DNA of 64,000 nucleotides. Origin: Methylomarinovum tepidoasis. GTDB lineage: Bacteria; Pseudomonadota; Gammaproteobacteria; Methylococcales; Methylothermaceae. The notes below the pieces were generated by a model that worked only from the letters and a program-made list of their open reading frames with translations, was not told where the DNA came from and did not search any database. Below are positions 31,852 to 38,873 of this stretch, piece by piece (the stretch's first letter is position 1; every line of letters starts with the position of its first letter). A program made the translations under genes and the position numbers. The stretch covers positions 806,001 to 870,000 of the forward strand of contig NZ_AP024718.1 of the NCBI RefSeq assembly GCF_030294985.1, given 5' to 3'.

Positions 31852-32502
31852 TCAGGCGCCGGTGGAGCCTTCGGGCCGTTTTCGGAGACAGAAGCGGCAG
31901 TCTCCATCACCGCGGACCATGCAGCTCCGCTGGGCCACCGTCCCTTCCAGGAGGCCGTCCAGCAGCCCCAGGTCCAAGGCGCAGACTTCTCGGTGGGCCT
32001 TGGCCAGATCATGATAGATGCAGTTTTTAGCGCTGATTTCCGGCAGTCTCTCCTTCCCTTCCACGACCTGGGCCTGATAGCCGAAGTCGCGCATGATGCG
32101 GACCACCTCACGGATTTTCTCCGTCCCTTCCTTGTCCCGCAGCCGCTCCCGTAGCGGGACGGCAGCTTCGCGGCCCAGCTGATAGAGCAGTTTTTCCACC
32201 GCCTCGCTGCCCATACGTTCCAGCAGTTGCTGCAACAGCAGTTCCGAGAACCAGGCGTAGTGCTTGGGGAACAAGTGGACACCTCGGTCGCTGAGCACGT
32301 AGATCTGACTGGGGCGGCCCCCGGTTTTGACCAGGGCGTGGCGAGCCACATAACCGTCCCGCTCCAGGGTGGTCAGGTGCTGGTGGACGGCCGGTTTGGA
32401 CACCCCCAGGGCCCGTGCCAGTTCGTCCATGGTCATGCCAGACTTGTTCTCCAGCAACAGGTTCAGCAACTGCTGTTGCCGTTCGCCAAGGCTGTTGATC
32501 AC
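31852..32502 (-). CDS. SufR-like winged-helix regulator with cysteine-rich C-terminus
   Basis: A 216-residue DeoR/ArsR-type regulator. The N-terminal winged helix is MTMDELARALGVSKPAVHQHLTTLERDGYV. The C-terminal domain holds Cys161, Cys174, Cys194, Cys202 and Cys205 in the SufR-like arrangement (NCIYH, VCALDLG, RSCMVRGDGDCRFC), so an Fe-S cluster is likely. I choose the GTG at 32502 because a near-perfect SD (CAGGAGGAA) sits six bases upstream; the longer frame to 32529 would include that SD. It is divergent from the multicopper oxidase operon, which it probably controls. SufR homologs repress suf genes, but no suf genes are here. Confidence 0.8.
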   Translation of the reverse strand: MINSLGERQQQLLNLLLENKSGMTMDELARALGVSKPAVHQHLTTLERDGYVARHALVKTGGRPSQIYVLSDRGVHLFPKHYAWFSELLLQQLLERMGSEAVEKLLYQLGREAAVPLRERLRDKEGTEKIREVVRIMRDFGYQAQVVEGKERLPEISAKNCIYHDLAKAHREVCALDLGLLDGLLEGTVAQRSCMVRGDGDCRFCLRKRPEGSTGA

Positions 32503-32554
32503 GTCTTCCTCCTGAATCGTGGGAATCATCAGTTTACTCGTTTTGGACGAACCG

Positions 32555-32610
32555 ACTAATTTTAGTTTTTAAATAAAAATATTGACAAAGTTTATTTGCG
32601 GCGATTTACT
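32555..32610 (+). promoter_or_regulatory. Promoter and possible operator of the multicopper oxidase operon
   Basis: TTGACA at 32582-32587 is a perfect -35, 17 bases before TTTACT at 32605-32610 (a 3/6 -10, so activation or another -10 is possible). Just upstream, ACTAA-TT-TTAGT (32555-32566) is a short inverted repeat in an unusually AT-rich stretch. It is a candidate site for the divergent regulator. The -35 and -10 match is seen; the operator is inference. Confidence 0.5.
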
Positions 32611-32648
32611 AGACGGTGCAAGTCTCATACTCACTCGAGGAGAAGGTT

Positions 32649-33587
32649 ATGCGCTTACACAGTCTGTTGTTGCTGTTGCTTTGCGGTATCGCCCTGCCGC
32701 TGCAGGCGGCTGTCCACCGTATCACCCTGCGTGCGGTGTCCCTGCCCTCCGGACAGCTGGCCTACCAGATGGTGCGCCACCAGGTGGAGGATCGGGGCAG
32801 AACCGAGGACGTCACCGGCCGCTACGCCGCCGGGCCCACCATTCCCGGTCCGACCATCATCCTGACCGAAGGGGATACGGCCTACGTGACCCTGGAGCAC
32901 GGCATCCGGGGTTCGGATCTGCCGGTAAGCCTGCACGTCCACGGGGTGCATTATCCCTTCGACAGCGACGGGACCACCAAGGTACTCAATCAGGTGGCCG
33001 ACCACGTCGCCCGTCCGGGGAAACCCTACACCTACAAGTGGATCGCGGCACCGGGCACGGCCGGTACCTGGATGTACCACGACCACGCCTTCGGTGACCC
33101 CAAGGTGGGGGCCGAAGACAAGGGTCTGTTTGGCACCCTGATCGTCAATCCCGCCAGCGGCAAAGTCGATGCTTTGATCGACGGCAGGATCCAGAAGGTG
33201 AACCTCAGGGACATCAAGCGGGAATTCGTCCTGTGGATGCACGAAACCACCTTCTGGGGTCAGGAAATCAACCATATCGTCAACCGCCAGATCCCTCTGT
33301 GGACCAATCCCACCGTCGGCGCCCGTGAAGGGGATCTGGTGCGTTTCCACGTTATCGGCATCGGCACCGCCTTCCACACCTTCCATCTGCACGGCCACCG
33401 CTGGATCGAACCGGGCACCACCCACGTGGTGGACACCGTCAACATCGGTCCCATCAGCCGGACCAGCTTCGTGGTCAAGGCCGGCGAGGGCGTGGGGCCC
33501 GGTGACTGGCACTATCACTGCCACGTCATCCAGCACATGCAGAGCGGCATGATGGGCAAATTCCGGGTGATTCCGAGCAACCGTTGA
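32649..33587 (+). CDS. Two-domain laccase-like multicopper oxidase, exported
   Basis: Oxidises a substrate with four coppers and reduces O2 to water. A Sec signal (SLLLLLLCGIALPLQA) precedes two cupredoxin domains in 312 residues. All eight trinuclear-centre histidines fall in four HxH pairs: 96/98, 144/146, 246/248 and 290/292. The type-1 site is His243, Cys291, His296 and axial Met301 in domain 2 only. That is the two-domain type-B arrangement rather than copper nitrite reductase. The substrate is unknown. The ATG at 32649 has a strong GAGGAGAAGG. Next gene: the cupredoxin-propeller, 13 bases on. Confidence 0.9.
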   Translation: MRLHSLLLLLLCGIALPLQAAVHRITLRAVSLPSGQLAYQMVRHQVEDRGRTEDVTGRYAAGPTIPGPTIILTEGDTAYVTLEHGIRGSDLPVSLHVHGVHYPFDSDGTTKVLNQVADHVARPGKPYTYKWIAAPGTAGTWMYHDHAFGDPKVGAEDKGLFGTLIVNPASGKVDALIDGRIQKVNLRDIKREFVLWMHETTFWGQEINHIVNRQIPLWTNPTVGAREGDLVRFHVIGIGTAFHTFHLHGHRWIEPGTTHVVDTVNIGPISRTSFVVKAGEGVGPGDWHYHCHVIQHMQSGMMGKFRVIPSNR

Positions 33588-33600
33588 GGAGGAAATCGGT

Positions 33601-35451
33601 ATGAAATTGAAAGCATTGAGCAGTGCTCTGATTCTGACCACCAGCCTGGGCGTGACGAATCCCGCCGGGGCGGTGAAACTGAAGACCCAGGCGTTACCGA
33701 CCCAGGAAGAAAGCGAGGAAAGCGCCATCATCAGTGTCGCCGGAGTGATGCCTTCCGCCATCCTGGAGATGACCGACGAACCCGGTACCTGGTTCAAAGA
33801 TCCGGTGGACGGGGATGCCCTGGTGGTGGTCAAACCCGGCGATGCGGTGCTGATCAAGATGACCGACGTCAACGCCGAGCACACCATCACCAGTCTGATC
33901 TGGCAGCCGGGGGCCAGGGAATTTCCGGTGGATCAGGACAAGCCGTCCTCGGCCAGCGTCACGGTGAAGTTCGACAAGCCCGGCCTGTACGTGTTCACCT
34001 GTAAGGTCCATCCCTACATGTTCGGTGCGGTGATCGTCGACGATCCCGCCACCCCGGGTCTGGACCTGGGCAAGGAAATCCAGCTGATCACCGGCGCCCG
34101 AGTGCCCACCACCAGCGACATCGCCAAGAAGCTGCTGCGCACCTTCTTCGTGGTGACGACCCCCGCCCTGTGGCGCGACTACAGCAAGCCCACCTGGGAG
34201 GTGAAGCTGCCGGACATTCCCCTCAATCTGGGCGGCACCCAGATCTCCCTCAGCGCCCTGAGCATCTCGGTGCCCAACAAGGTGTTTAAGCCCAAAGTGC
34301 CGGGGGTTGGCGAGGTCTGGGTCAACACCCAGTTCGAGAAGATCGCCGGCAAGACCAAACCCGGCTCTGCCACCCAGATCGACGTTGCCACCTGGACCAT
34401 CAAAAAGAAGGTCAAGGGCATCGAGACCAACATGAACCACCCCCACAACATGTGGACGGACCGAACCTATCGCTACATCTACCAGACCGAATGGTTCGAC
34501 AAGCGCCTGACCACCTTCGACCGCGAAACGGGTGACACTTACAGCGTGGTCAACGTAGGCCAGGATCCTTCCCACGTCATCACCCGGCCCGGCAGCGACG
34601 TCCTTTACGTGGCCATCAACGGCGAGGACCGGGTCACCAAGCTGTCGCCGGGACGCAACCATAACCTGCTGGGGTCGATCAACGTGGGTGAGCATTCCGG
34701 TCCCCACGGCCACTGGATCACGGACGACGGCAAGCTCATGGTCACCCCCAATGCCCTGGCGGCAAGCGTCTCGGTTGTGGACCTGGACACGGAAAAGGTC
34801 ACAGAAATTCCCACCGGTGGGGTGATCCCCATCGCTGTCGGCATCCGGCCCCAGGGGGATTACGCCTACGTGGCCAACCTGCTGGGAACGCCGCCCAAGC
34901 TGGCCACCATGTCGGTGATCGACCTCAAAACCAAAAAGAAGGTCCAGGACATCGACTTGGCGGCCGATTACGACCCGATCTCCGGAAAGACCGAGGGACC
35001 GGCCTACGGGCTGCTGCCGATTCAGACTCCGGTCAGCCCCGACGGCAAATACGTGGTCACCGCCAACACCCTGAGCGCTTCCATCTCCATCATCGACACC
35101 GCCACCAACAAGGTGATCAAACAGCTGCCCTGCGATCCCGGCGCCCACGGGGTCGAATTCGGCTTCAAGAAGGGGGGCGGCTACTACGCCTACGTGGCCA
35201 GCAAGTTCTCCAACGTGCTGACGGTGGTGGACATGGACACCCTGGAAATCGTCGGCCGCATCCTGCTGGCCGATCCTTCCGATCCCGAAGTCACCGGGCT
35301 CAACGGTTTCGGTGGCCAGGGGGTGCTGCCGCTGCCGCTGGTGTTCCACGGCTGGCTCAAGGATACTCTGAAGCTTACCGGCACCGGCCAGCTCGACCCG
35401 GAAGTCGAGGGGTGGCTCAAGCAGCTGACCCCGGAGCAGAAGGGGATCTGA
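33601..35451 (+). CDS. Exported cupredoxin-beta-propeller fusion protein
   Basis: A 616-residue protein. After a signal peptide (LSSALILTTSLGVTNPAGA), residues about 45-150 form a type-1-copper cupredoxin with His94 (AEHTI), Cys134, His137 and Met140 (FTCKVHPYM). From about 270 to 560 it is a YVTN-type beta-propeller (VLYVAINGEDRVTKLSPG, VSVVDLDTEKVTEIPTGG, SPDGKYVVTANTLSASISIIDT). The linker in between (about 155-265) matches nothing I recognise. It shares an operon with the multicopper oxidase (GAGGAGGAAATC SD), suggesting it passes electrons to it or presents its substrate. Which, if either, is inference. Confidence 0.85.
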   Translation: MKLKALSSALILTTSLGVTNPAGAVKLKTQALPTQEESEESAIISVAGVMPSAILEMTDEPGTWFKDPVDGDALVVVKPGDAVLIKMTDVNAEHTITSLIWQPGAREFPVDQDKPSSASVTVKFDKPGLYVFTCKVHPYMFGAVIVDDPATPGLDLGKEIQLITGARVPTTSDIAKKLLRTFFVVTTPALWRDYSKPTWEVKLPDIPLNLGGTQISLSALSISVPNKVFKPKVPGVGEVWVNTQFEKIAGKTKPGSATQIDVATWTIKKKVKGIETNMNHPHNMWTDRTYRYIYQTEWFDKRLTTFDRETGDTYSVVNVGQDPSHVITRPGSDVLYVAINGEDRVTKLSPGRNHNLLGSINVGEHSGPHGHWITDDGKLMVTPNALAASVSVVDLDTEKVTEIPTGGVIPIAVGIRPQGDYAYVANLLGTPPKLATMSVIDLKTKKKVQDIDLAADYDPISGKTEGPAYGLLPIQTPVSPDGKYVVTANTLSASISIIDTATNKVIKQLPCDPGAHGVEFGFKKGGGYYAYVASKFSNVLTVVDMDTLEIVGRILLADPSDPEVTGLNGFGGQGVLPLPLVFHGWLKDTLKLTGTGQLDPEVEGWLKQLTPEQKGI

Positions 35452-35571: not shown

Positions 35572-37086
35572 ATGGCCGAATTCAAAGTCGCCCGGGAAAC
35601 GGATCTGGCCGTCGGCCGGATGAAACAGGTCCAGGCCGGAACCACCGCCGTGCTGTTGCTGCGGCTGGAGGACGGTTTCCATGCCCTGGGGGCGCTGTGT
35701 CCCCACTACGAGGCGCCGCTGGCGGCCGGGGCCCTGTGCGACGGCCGTATCGTCTGCCCCTGGCACCATGCCTGCTTCGATGCCCGCAGCGGGGCGCTGC
35801 TGGAACCGCCGGGTCTGGATGGCCTGCCGGTCTATCCGGTGCGGGTCGATGACGGCGAGGTCTGGGTCACGATCCCCGAGCAGAGCCAGCCACCGCCACC
35901 GCCGCGGCGTGATCCCGCCGATTCCCGCCTGTGCGTGGTGATCGGCGGTGGCTGTGCCGGGGCCTATGCGGTGGAAGCGCTGCGTGACCACGGTTTCGGC
36001 GGCCGGATCGTGTGGGTCACCGGCCCCGAGTTTCCCCCCATCGACCGTCCCCTGCTGAGCAAGGGGTATCTGAGCGGCGAGGCGCCGGAGAGCTGGCTGC
36101 CGCTGCGGGCACCGGATTTCTATACCGCCCGTGACATCGAGGTGGTCGAGGCGGCGGCAACCGCCCTGGCGGCCGATGCTCGGCAGGTGACGCTCAGCGA
36201 CGGCACGGCGCTCGCTTACGATGCCGCCATTCTGGCAAGTGGCGCGGTCAACCGCCGGCCGCCGATTCCGGGCGTCGATTTGGACGGGGTCTTTTTCCTG
36301 CGCTCCCGGGATGACGGCGAACACCTGCGCCAGGCCGCCGAGTCGGCCCGCCGCGCGGTGGTGGTCGGGGCTGGCTTCATCGGCATGGAGGTGGCCCAGA
36401 GCCTGCGCCGGCGGGACATCGAGGTGACGGTGGTGGCGCCAGAGACGGTGCCCTTCGAACGGGTGCTGGGGCCGGAAATCGGCGCCGCCTTGCACCGGCT
36501 GCACGAAGATCACGGGGTGGCGTTCCGCCTCGGACGCACGGTAAAGGCTTTCCAGGGCGCCGGCCGGGTCGAGCGGGTTTCGTTGGACGACGGCAGTGAA
36601 CTGCCGGCCGATCTGGTGGTGGTGGGCGTGGGGGTGCGTCCGGCGACGGATTTCGTCACCGGCGTCAGCAAGGCCGACGACGGCGCGATCCTGGTGGATG
36701 CGGGCCTGCGGGCGGCGGAAGGACTGTACGCGGCCGGCGATCTGGCCTGCTTCCCCGACTGGCGCAGCGGCGCGCCGATCCGGGTCGAGCACTGGCGCAT
36801 GGCCGCCCAGCACGGCCGCCTCGCCGGTGCCAACGTGGCCGGCGCCGGCCTGGAATACCGTGGTGTGCCGTATTTCTGGACCCGCCAGTACAACCGCACT
36901 CTGCAGTATTTCGGCCACGCGGCGGACTGGGACGAGATCCGCTACGACGGCGATCCGGCCGGATACGATTTCATCGCCTATTTCGTCAGGGACGGTCAGG
37001 TTCACGCCGTCGCCGGCATGGAGCGCGAACGCGAACTGGCCGAGCTGGAGGAGCGCATGCGCCGGGAAGGACTGTGGCGGCTTTGA
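35572..37086 (+). CDS. Rieske-FAD oxidoreductase (AIFM3-like)
   Basis: A 504-residue cytoplasmic oxidoreductase. The N-terminal Rieske [2Fe-2S] domain has Cys43/His45 (CPHYEAPL) and Cys62/His65 (CPWHHACFD). The rest is a pyridine-nucleotide-disulfide-like FAD/NAD(P)H reductase with LCVVIGGGCAGAYAVEAL, the second Rossmann RAVVVGAGFIGMEVAQSLRR, and AAEGLYAAGDLACFPDW. This is the apoptosis-inducing-factor-3 architecture, also used as ferredoxin reductase for oxygenases. ATG at 35572 has a GGAGG SD. It overlaps nrdJ by 13 bases, so the two are co-expressed; whether it supplies electrons to NrdJ is inference. Confidence 0.9.
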   Translation: MAEFKVARETDLAVGRMKQVQAGTTAVLLLRLEDGFHALGALCPHYEAPLAAGALCDGRIVCPWHHACFDARSGALLEPPGLDGLPVYPVRVDDGEVWVTIPEQSQPPPPPRRDPADSRLCVVIGGGCAGAYAVEALRDHGFGGRIVWVTGPEFPPIDRPLLSKGYLSGEAPESWLPLRAPDFYTARDIEVVEAAATALAADARQVTLSDGTALAYDAAILASGAVNRRPPIPGVDLDGVFFLRSRDDGEHLRQAAESARRAVVVGAGFIGMEVAQSLRRRDIEVTVVAPETVPFERVLGPEIGAALHRLHEDHGVAFRLGRTVKAFQGAGRVERVSLDDGSELPADLVVVGVGVRPATDFVTGVSKADDGAILVDAGLRAAEGLYAAGDLACFPDWRSGAPIRVEHWRMAAQHGRLAGANVAGAGLEYRGVPYFWTRQYNRTLQYFGHAADWDEIRYDGDPAGYDFIAYFVRDGQVHAVAGMERERELAELEERMRREGLWRL

Positions 37087-38873
37087 CCGGGACGCCATTT
37101 CCCCAGGAAATTTCCCGCATCGTCTGGGAAAGCAAGTACCGCGCTCCGGGCGAGGCCGACATCTGGGAAACCTGGCGGCGGGTGGCGCAGGCAGTGGCCA
37201 GTGTGGAAGCGGAGCCGGAGGTGTGGCAGGCCCGGTTCCTGGATTTGCTGGCGGATTTCAAATTCCTCCCCGGCGGCCGCATTCTCGCCGGCGCCGGCAC
37301 CCGCCGCCAGGTGACCCTGTTCAACTGCTTCGCCATGGGGCCGATGGAGGACAGCCTCGACGGCATCTTCGAGGCCCTCAAGGAAGGCGCCCTGACCATG
37401 CAGCAGGGTGGCGGTGTCGGCTACGACTTTTCCACCCTGCGTCCCCGCGGCACCCGGGCCGAAAGCGCCGGCACCGTGGCTTCCGGGCCGGTGTCGTTCA
37501 TGCACATCTTCGATGTCGGATGCGCGGTGCTGCTCTCCACCGCCAGCCGCCGCGGGGCAATGATGGCGACCTTGCGCTGCGACCATCCCGACGTGGAGGA
37601 ATTCGTCGAGGCCAAGCGCGATCCCCAGGTTCTGCGCAATTTCAACTTGTCGGTGACCGTGTCCGATGCCTTCATGGCGGCGGTGGAACGGGACGGCGAC
37701 TGGCCCTTGGTGTTTCCCGCCGAGCAGCTCACCCCCGGCAGCGGCGAGGGCAGTGTGCTGCGGGATTGGCCCGGTTACGACAAGCCGGTGCCGTGCCGGA
37801 TTCTGAAGACCGTCAGGGCCCGCCGGCTGTGGGACCGGATCATGCGCGCCACCTACGAAGTGGCCGAGCCGGGCGTGCTGTTTCTCGACCGCATCAACCG
37901 GCTCAACAATCTCCATTACTGCGAGCGCATCCACACCACCAATCCCTGCTCCGAACTGCCGCTGCCGCCCTACGGCGCCTGCGACCTGGGCTCGATCAAC
38001 TTGGTGCGGTTCGTGCGCGAACCCTTCAGCAACCGGGCCCGGCTGGATCTGGACGCCATCGCCGCCTTGGTGCCGGTGGTGGTGCGTTTTCTCGACGACG
38101 TCATCGACCTGTCCGGCTTTCCTCTGGAGAGGCAGCGCCGCCGCGCCCGCGCCACCCGCCGTATCGGCCTGGGACTGACCGGCCTGGCCGACGCCCTCAT
38201 CCTCCTGGGGCTGCGTTACGACAGCGACGCCGCCCGCCGGTTGGCCGGGAAGGTGATGGCGACGATCTGTCACGCCGCCTATCGGGCTTCCATCGCCCTG
38301 GCCCGGGAAAAGGGCGCCTTTCCGTTGTTCGAACCCCGGGTCTATCCGCAGGGACCCTTCGTCACCCGATTGCCGCAGGACATCCGCGACGGCATCGCCG
38401 CCCACGGTCTGCGCAACAGCCATCTGCTCGCCATCGCCCCCACCGGCTCCATCAGCCTGCTGGCCGGCAACGTCTCCAGTGGCCTGGAGCCGGTGTTCGC
38501 CTGGCGCTACCAGCGCCGCCTGCAGCTGGAGGGCAGGGAATGCCGGCTGGTGGAGGTGACCGACCCCGCCTGGTCCCTGTGGCGACGGCGCCACGGCGAC
38601 GGCGCCTTGCCGGATTTCTTCGTCACCGCCACGGACCTGTCTCCCGAGGCCCATCTGGCGATGCAGGCGGTGCTGCAGCGCCACGTGGACAGCGCCATCT
38701 CCAAGACCATCCATATCCCTGAGGATTATCCCTTCGAAGCCTTCCGCGACGTCTATCACCGCGCCTACGAGCTGGGCCTGAAGGGCTGCACCACGTATCG
38801 CCCCAATCCGGTCCGGGGCAGCGTCCTGGTGACCGAACGCCACTGCTGTGACATCGACCGGGAAGGGGATTGA
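37074..38873 (+). CDS. nrdJ: Adenosylcobalamin-dependent ribonucleotide reductase (class II), short form
   Basis: Makes deoxyribonucleotides with adenosylcobalamin, independent of oxygen. The 599 residues lack the N-terminal ATP-cone and begin with the core (FNCFAMGPMEDSLDGIFEAL, MQQGGGVGYDFS). The catalytic Asn290-Pro-Cys292-x-Glu294 (NPCSE) is followed by GACDLGSINL, and APTGSISLLAGNVSSGLEPVFAWRYQR marks the C-terminal part. A vicinal Cys pair (ERHCCDID) near the end could serve as the reductant site in place of the usual C-terminal CxxC. A GTG starts the gene inside the preceding ORF. The organism needs B12; see the riboswitch and receptor at 56-58 kb. Confidence 0.94.
   Translation: MAALTGTPFPQEISRIVWESKYRAPGEADIWETWRRVAQAVASVEAEPEVWQARFLDLLADFKFLPGGRILAGAGTRRQVTLFNCFAMGPMEDSLDGIFEALKEGALTMQQGGGVGYDFSTLRPRGTRAESAGTVASGPVSFMHIFDVGCAVLLSTASRRGAMMATLRCDHPDVEEFVEAKRDPQVLRNFNLSVTVSDAFMAAVERDGDWPLVFPAEQLTPGSGEGSVLRDWPGYDKPVPCRILKTVRARRLWDRIMRATYEVAEPGVLFLDRINRLNNLHYCERIHTTNPCSELPLPPYGACDLGSINLVRFVREPFSNRARLDLDAIAALVPVVVRFLDDVIDLSGFPLERQRRRARATRRIGLGLTGLADALILLGLRYDSDAARRLAGKVMATICHAAYRASIALAREKGAFPLFEPRVYPQGPFVTRLPQDIRDGIAAHGLRNSHLLAIAPTGSISLLAGNVSSGLEPVFAWRYQRRLQLEGRECRLVEVTDPAWSLWRRRHGDGALPDFFVTATDLSPEAHLAMQAVLQRHVDSAISKTIHIPEDYPFEAFRDVYHRAYELGLKGCTTYRPNPVRGSVLVTERHCCDIDREGD

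Follow-up and report, generated by a model that had tools for sequence, protein, structure and literature searches.

A multicopper oxidase and cupredoxin-propeller pair concentrated in methane and ammonia oxidisers, with nitric oxide as a candidate substrate

What does a laccase-like copper oxidase do beside a second copper protein built as a cupredoxin joined to a beta-propeller? The question is raised by a locus of the gammaproteobacterium Methylomarinovum tepidoasis (GCF_030294985.1), analysed within a stretch of 64,000 nucleotides (contig NZ_AP024718.1, positions 806,001 to 870,000), here called the window, whose own numbering is used throughout. The genome (G000, 2.44 Mb) has two pmoA copies and one HAO-type gene, all away from the window. 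Our preferred reading, which we hold tentatively and at a little short of even confidence, is that the pair is a dedicated periplasmic copper oxidase of methane and ammonia oxidisers, its two proteins working as one complex, with nitric oxide (NO) or a close nitrogen oxide as likeliest substrate. At the level of sequence, our comparisons establish the pairing, its fusion and reciprocal ligand loss in ammonia-oxidising bacteria (AOB) and a soil genome of ammonia-oxidising archaea (AOA), the conservation of the ligands, the concentration in this guild and, in some methanotrophs, NO-gene neighbourhoods. An NO function of the pair is plausible. The two genes are:

32616..33587, + strand: two-domain multicopper oxidase (MCO), 323 amino acids with the GTG start as listed, assigned by Pfam and ligand alignment
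33601..35451, + strand: cupredoxin plus seven-bladed beta-propeller protein, 616 amino acids, assigned from its open reading frame (ORF), an AlphaFold2 model and an alignment of 80 rows

The oxidase and its propeller partner

The likelier start of the oxidase is an ATG at 32649 (312 amino acids), which has a GGAG upstream and fits better than the GTG at 32616; the N-terminus of this form is signal-peptide-like. Pfam Cu-oxidase_3 and Cu-oxidase_2 both score above cut-off, and every ligand is in place (4/4/4 for domain 1, domain 2 and type 1). In the numbering of the 323-residue form, the trinuclear ligands are H107/H109/H155/H157 in domain 1 and H257/H259/H301/H303 in domain 2, which also holds the sole type-1 site (H254/C302/H307/M312). 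The earlier note on this DNA had described just such a two-domain oxidase, with all trinuclear histidines and one type-1 site, and its His243/Cys291/His296/Met301 are these residues minus 11, that is, counted from the ATG. Because the ligand set is complete, O2 would be expected to be reduced at the trinuclear site. The closest solved sequences are two-domain laccases, and by the features tested the protein classes as a two-domain laccase-type oxidase; identity as a copper-resistance MCO was rejected (copper_res_A, 71 vs a cut-off of 479 bits). It shares with the Streptomyces small laccases (SLAC/Ssl1; 4n8u, 3tas, 3cg8) two cupredoxin domains, a type-1 site in domain 2 and all trinuclear ligands. 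Unlike them, the present family usually has a cupredoxin-propeller neighbour or fusion, shows split ligands in AOB and the soil AOA genome, and occurs in other organisms.

The partner gene begins 13 bases past the MCO stop codon, and its cupredoxin has the type-1 ligands H94/C134/H137/M140, both as first described. The seven-bladed propeller is weak in Pfam (YNCE, 32.4 vs a cut-off of 27.1 bits, partial coverage) and clear in the AlphaFold2 model (pLDDT 89.1, pTM 0.88) and its structure matches, headed by 1l0q (Z 38.2, 295 aligned, 2.0 Å). The YNCE profile matches 49 of 51 family members at E<=0.1, and the fold is YncE-like; a full-length family for the protein was not found in Pfam or NCBIfam. 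NosZ 5i5j is also among the structure matches (Z 32.1, 304 aligned, 2.6 Å), with other, unrelated seven-bladed propellers equal or better, and a model of a fused MCO-propeller chain (pLDDT 86.2) matches thiocyanate dehydrogenase 8q9x (Z 29.9, 325 aligned, 2.8 Å). Both enzymes are absent from the 25 PDB matches of a propeller profile search. The NCBIfam L-NosZ profile (NF052460) reaches 61 bits on the window protein against a cut-off of 700 and weakly matches 43 of 51 family members (E<=0.001); membership of NosZ/L-NosZ was rejected on the missed curated cut-off and the missing two-Cys CuA motif.

Across the 80 aligned rows the cupredoxin type-1 ligands are kept in 78-80 (C134 in all 80), propeller residues H282, H325, H369, H371 and H516 in 79-80 and C511 in 78; the window protein has 13 Cys/His, and H280, H354, H365 and H583 drift among the rows. 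On our reading of the strand list of the model, the kept histidines lie at or near the innermost-strand starts of blades 1, 2, 3 and 6, which would place them on one channel rim. NosZ, cd1 and thiocyanate dehydrogenase carry cofactors at the mouth of the propeller channel, and we propose that a metal may sit at the mouth here. Like NosZ and clade III L-NosZ, the protein combines cupredoxin and seven-bladed propeller in one chain (a fold match) and has mouth histidines. It differs in its single-Cys type-1 site instead of CuA, its MCO partner and its score far under the L-NosZ cut-off; NosZ has seven mouth histidines where five are found here, and the reverse domain order. Thiocyanate dehydrogenase (8q9x, 8z75) is a copper enzyme built on a seven-bladed propeller, and it oxidises a small anion; its likeness is a long structural alignment with the fused model, a match of fold only, and it is not known to have an MCO or cupredoxin fusion.

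Pairing, fusion and split ligand sets

In a pattern search through 84,980 species genomes, 96 relatives of the propeller were found, of which the best 80 were kept; loci were collected from contigs of at least 3 kb, and ligands were tallied over 116 MCO rows from propeller loci. The pair is found again in methanotrophs among the gamma- and alphaproteobacteria, as separate adjoining genes with gaps of -23 to 36 nucleotides (13 loci measured); at some methanotroph loci the MCO was missed by the ORF caller and placed upstream of the propeller by tblastn. In AOB, in the soil AOA genome (L050, L086) and in a Chromatiales metagenome-assembled genome (MAG), the propeller ORF itself begins with an MCO domain, and directly upstream of it lies a further MCO gene. 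Such an upstream gene is present at 40 loci with a fused ORF of more than 780 amino acids, at gaps of -23 to 47 nucleotides and, once, of 363. The pairing in the window is not a matter of chance, as numerous genomes from several phyla have an MCO adjacent to the propeller. The earlier note had treated the two genes as a unit, and proposed checks on conserved adjacency and on ligand loss in homologues. Adjacency and fusion recur, so that the pair is usually one unit, and ligands are kept, a loss in one chain being matched by retention in its neighbour.

All 12 ligands are found in the window MCO, in 15 methanotroph MCOs, in 11 Nitrospira MCOs, in one unlinked AOA MCO (L070) and in the AOA fusion L096. 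Every upstream stand-alone MCO of a split pair (42/42) has the domain-1 histidines complete (4/4), at most one of four in domain 2 and 1-2 of four type-1 ligands. The 45 fused MCOs other than L096 are the converse, with domain-2 histidines 4/4, 3-4 type-1 ligands and at most 1/4 in domain 1. Once three rows in which domain 1 cannot be judged are left out (L046 and L100, which the contig start truncates, and L075, whose ORF is short), the split pattern holds in 42 of 43 fused MCOs. By their aligned ligand positions, neither MCO chain of a split pair has a full set, and the two chains are complementary. In solved two-domain oxidases, which are homotrimers, adjoining chains share the trinuclear site, one contributing its domain 1 and the other its domain 2. 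Given this inter-chain site and the complementary losses, the pair should therefore form a heteromer with a shared site. We predict an obligate MCO heteromer in AOB and one soil AOA genome, a design that is not known from any described enzyme, no search having been aimed at it.

Other members keep the inventory in other forms. Five AOA genomes (L107, L109-L112) have a single chain of 1074-1121 amino acids with all motifs, and an intact MCO of 660-711 amino acids stands upstream of the propeller at 11 of 12 Nitrospira loci (e.g. L060:5846-7828), where this longer MCO replaces the two-domain one, a partner swap with the ligand inventory retained. One Nitrosomonas locus (L045, L054) holds two tandem MCO plus MCO-propeller pairs, L050 and L086 are two diverged split-pair copies within one Nitrososphaeraceae MAG, and an AOA fused gene (L108, G621) reads through one TGA and one TAG and is possibly decaying. 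Copper nitrite reductases with a tethered cupredoxin (9cck; 6hbe and 2dv6 align partly) resemble the pair in joining a cupredoxin to a multicopper core, and the 409-residue 9cck aligns over profile positions 52-407, that is, MCO plus cupredoxin. In these reductases the tethered cupredoxin feeds the type-1 copper of the core. They differ from the present proteins, which have an O2-type trinuclear oxidase as core and a propeller in addition; cupredoxin-tethered NirK is the closest mechanical model for electron transfer from cupredoxin to core.

Distribution, neighbourhoods and regulators

The best 80 relatives comprise, as labelled, 21 methane oxidisers (three labelled only Gammaproteobacteria and one Methyloversatilis), 39 Nitrosomonas/Nitrosospira/Nitrosovibrio, the Chromatiales MAG, seven AOA and 12 Nitrospira. 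Profile searches, counted at E<=1e-40, found the propeller in 2 of 299 Pseudomonadota (G000 and G162, both with AmoA/PmoA, G162 with three amoA) and in 7 of 200 Thermoproteota, one match being weak and partial (G662). All seven archaea have amoA, against 31 of 200 overall (hypergeometric p ~1e-6, kinship ignored). In the genus Nitrospira the propeller occurs in 45 of 77 genomes, three of these being fragments; AmoA or AmoB accompanies it in 38/45, against 15/32 propeller-negative genomes (p=9e-4; AmoA alone, 0.03; AmoB searched only in the 29 genomes without AmoA). G162 and 42 genomes picked from those behind the 80 loci were tested for monooxygenase subunits, with archaeal amoA sought in ten of these propeller genomes, and 32 of the 43 had at least one subunit. 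None of the subunits sought was found in the other 11, which include MAGs and Nitrosomonas supralitoralis, or in 7 of the 45 propeller-positive Nitrospira (two genomes belong to both sets), and strict exclusivity to copper-monooxygenase organisms is thus unproven. Within the Methylococcales the propeller shows no association with PmoA (present in 50/61, p=1.0); HAO is found in 12 of 14 propeller-positive vs 15 of 47 propeller-negative genomes.

Some propeller match occurs on 85 of 72,556 plasmids, and a match covering at least 80% on two, both of Methylocystis rosea. One of them, pGW6_2 (L115), is typed mobilizable and has, along with the MCO-propeller operon, genes for a sigma factor, NorB/NorC-like proteins and NnrS. 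On the propeller tree the AOA label requires four changes, two of them forced by well-supported branches; a number of AOA branches are long and uncertain. The MCO-less AOA locus L040 is sister to Methylomirabilis L095 (100/99), which suggests cross-domain transfer between guild members. The Chromatiales MAG (L088, a 118-kb contig) has an AOB-type pair that branches with Nitrosomonas marina/aestuarii; AmoA, AmoB and archaeal AmoA were sought in it and not found, and it is either a binning error or a new AOB.

NO genes were tallied with seven queries over flanks of varying length, the fragments L009 and L014 being left out. Of 26 methanotroph genomes, 10 have such genes beside the operon, in four arrangements. 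Five Methylocystis loci (L028, L029, L030, L037 and plasmid L115) combine sigma factor, MCO, propeller, folE, NorC-like/NorB, SirB2 and NnrS, and count as one arrangement because they are close kin; Methylocystis L026 has the sigma factor and folE only. G057, a pmoA-bearing member of the Methylococcales found through the Methylocystis NorB and NnrS queries (43% and 38% identity), has NnrS, propeller, MCO, a SufR-like regulator and qNOR in an order and orientation that differ from Methylocystis. In G019, NorR (672.8 vs a cut-off of 476 bits) and cytochrome P460 adjoin the operon. Methylocaldum-type loci (L024, L025, G039) have a divergent Rrf2 protein for which NsrR is the best model at 148.7 bits, under its cut-off of 182 (RirA, 135). 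NsrR-like, NorB/qNOR, NnrS and P460 matches were found in none of 60 control regions of 20 kb each, taken at even intervals along G057, G019 and G039. Sigma-54 cross-matches to NorR occur in 8 of the 60, all below 60% identity, of which L182 (50.7% over NorR residues 46-519) could be a NorR relative; a similar cross-match at locus L052 (42.6%) was not counted.

Control of the operon brings in further features of the window:

31852..32529, - strand: divergent winged-helix regulator with a Cys-rich C-terminus, SufR-like, lineage-specific
32530..32648, no strand: divergent promoter region, in which ATTGACAA is conserved across four aligned Methylothermaceae stretches
35572..37086, + strand: Rieske plus flavin adenine dinucleotide (FAD) reductase, a separate downstream gene, also at L021 and G004 and outside the widely conserved unit

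The earlier note had described a divergent SufR-like regulator with five C-terminal cysteines. The gene and its cysteines (170, 183, 203, 211, 214) are there, and a winged helix followed by a Cys-rich domain does recall SufR, but the SufR model (TIGR02702) gives 67.5 bits against a cut-off of 178.8 (75.2 for the G057 homologue) and the spacing differs. The cyanobacterial cluster motif, as given in an excerpt of PMC8593673, is C-X12-C-X13-C-X14-C; only the first spacing of the window protein (C170-X12-C183-X19-C203-X7-C211) agrees with it. These four cysteines are kept in 7/7 aligned SufR-like regulators (the window and six loci found by ORF search, one MAG being represented twice), and C214 only in Methylothermaceae. 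A SufR-like regulator was found beside the operon in the window, L021, L022/L099, L027, L039, L033, G002, G006 and G057, that is, only in Methylothermaceae and some other Methylococcales. Further methanotrophs have NsrR-like proteins or NorR, divergent and in the same place, Methylocystis operons have a sigma-70-family factor resembling the extracytoplasmic-function type, and at many AOB loci the regulator is a response regulator of LuxR type (four by Pfam, others by tblastn). SufR control as a general feature was rejected, since regulator type changes with lineage. The proposal that an Fe-S sensor gates the copper enzyme thus survives in a narrower form: Fe-S-type NO sensing by the window regulator is plausible, given the four kept cysteines and the NsrR-like and NorR proteins elsewhere, and SufR-like control is lineage-specific. 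Comparison of the aligned Methylothermaceae promoters gave no motif beyond ATTGACAA. Further downstream, a short B12-dependent ribonucleotide reductase (37074-38873, 599 amino acids) adjoins the Rieske-FAD reductase, an order kept in L021.

Candidate functions

According to the model we prefer, MCO and cupredoxin-propeller would act as one complex, in which the propeller mouth, with five His and one Cys, would hold the substrate or a copper site. Electrons would pass one by one from the propeller, by way of the type-1 coppers of first the cupredoxin and then the MCO, to the trinuclear cluster, which would turn O2 into water. The likeliest substrate would be NO, converted to nitrite, or a related nitrogen oxide formed when the copper monooxygenase attacks ammonia, and the window regulator would sense NO. 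We favour NO because the guild can share it as a product and because of the methanotroph neighbourhoods; the HAO association points the same way, though family membership confounds it (both are missing from all f6 genomes).

The main rival, and the less tested, is copper homeostasis, in which the pair would be a cuprous oxidase or copper buffer for assembly of the copper monooxygenase, with Cu(I) or a chaperone bound by the propeller and Cu(I) oxidised by the MCO. Concentration in copper-monooxygenase organisms would fit, and the excerpts of two papers agree: MCOs and copper-uptake genes are among those most induced under copper limitation in Nitrososphaera viennensis (PMC7785015), and one PmoD homolog class is commonly near MCO genes (PMC6189053). 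However, the operon lies tens of kb or more from pmoA/amoA on large contigs (G000, G016, G019, G039, G057, G162), and its functional neighbourhood, where one was found, is NO metabolism, copper genes near the loci not having been searched for. We consider copper homeostasis rather unlikely. A copper-based hydroxylamine oxidase, taking NH2OH to NO or nitrite as a counterpart of HAO, would suit the same guild, the P460 beside the operon in G019 and the co-occurrence with HAO in Methylococcales; it is quite improbable, and 12 of 14 propeller-positive Methylococcales already have HAO. The missing hydroxylamine enzyme of archaea was rejected as an identity: with the propeller in only 7 of 31 amoA-positive archaea, it cannot be a general one.

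Two readings that turn on the propeller have only a slight chance each. One gives the propeller a NosZ-like or thiocyanate-dehydrogenase-like multinuclear copper cluster whose substrate would be N2O or some other small molecule, the MCO serving as electron sink. The matches to 5i5j and 8q9x and the weak L-NosZ matches speak for it, but other propellers, 1l0q above all, score the same or higher, the L-NosZ cut-off is far away, the type-1 site has a single Cys and there is no CuA motif, and an O2-reducing partner poorly suits N2O reduction. The other makes the propeller a scaffold or substrate-binding lid for a laccase-type oxidase of organic or metal substrates. Propellers are common scaffolds and the nearest MCO structures are two-domain laccases, yet this would leave the near-invariant propeller histidines, the type-1 ligands and the guild pattern unexplained.

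Several observations weigh against an NO-oxidising complex. The seven queries gave no counted match at AOB, AOA or Nitrospira loci, or in 16 of the 26 methanotroph genomes, including the window. They were picked after the loci had been viewed, which makes the test partly circular, only the G057 NnrS and NorB having come from a search with Methylocystis sequences; the contrast with the controls is therefore inflated. The distribution is patchy, at 7/31 amoA-positive archaea and 14/61 Methylococcales relatives, so the pair is not a universal third enzyme of nitrification. There is no MCO within 17.7 kb of the propeller in AOA L040, none in 20 kb of the second G162 copy (L124) and none upstream in Methylomirabilis L095, whose contig ends inside the gene; AOA L070 has only an unlinked MCO on the opposite strand. 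The propeller can therefore occur without an MCO or with its partner elsewhere. Finally, residue 515, a Cys in 76 of 80 rows, is Ala in the window propeller protein.

A bolder version of the NO reading, rather unlikely to hold in full, is that the pair would be an unrecognised copper NO oxidase (NO + H2O -> nitrite, O2 as acceptor) that comammox Nitrospira would have in common with methane oxidisers, AOB and AOA. For AOB and some AOA, the trinuclear site would exist only between two degenerate MCO chains, a natural split-active-site MCO joined to a cupredoxin and a metallo-propeller, and the enzyme would provide an accessory form of the NO-oxidising step of nitrification. In an excerpt of a 2018 paper, the enzyme that converts NO to nitrite in ammonia oxidation is called uncharacterised (PMC5960693). 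No description of the MCO-propeller pair was found in the titles, abstract openings and passages searched, a body of text mostly outside subscription papers, and one annotated plasmid record names the two 'multicopper oxidase domain-containing protein' and 'hypothetical protein'.

What goes beyond the earlier note is that the pair is concentrated in one guild, that it is in places fused with its ligands split, that propeller histidines are conserved, and that NO genes lie nearby in some methanotrophs. The reciprocal ligand loss offers a sharp and cheap test of an obligate heteromeric MCO, and a pair concentrated in the methane and ammonia oxidisers of both bacteria and archaea would bring a further oxidase into two major biogeochemical cycles.

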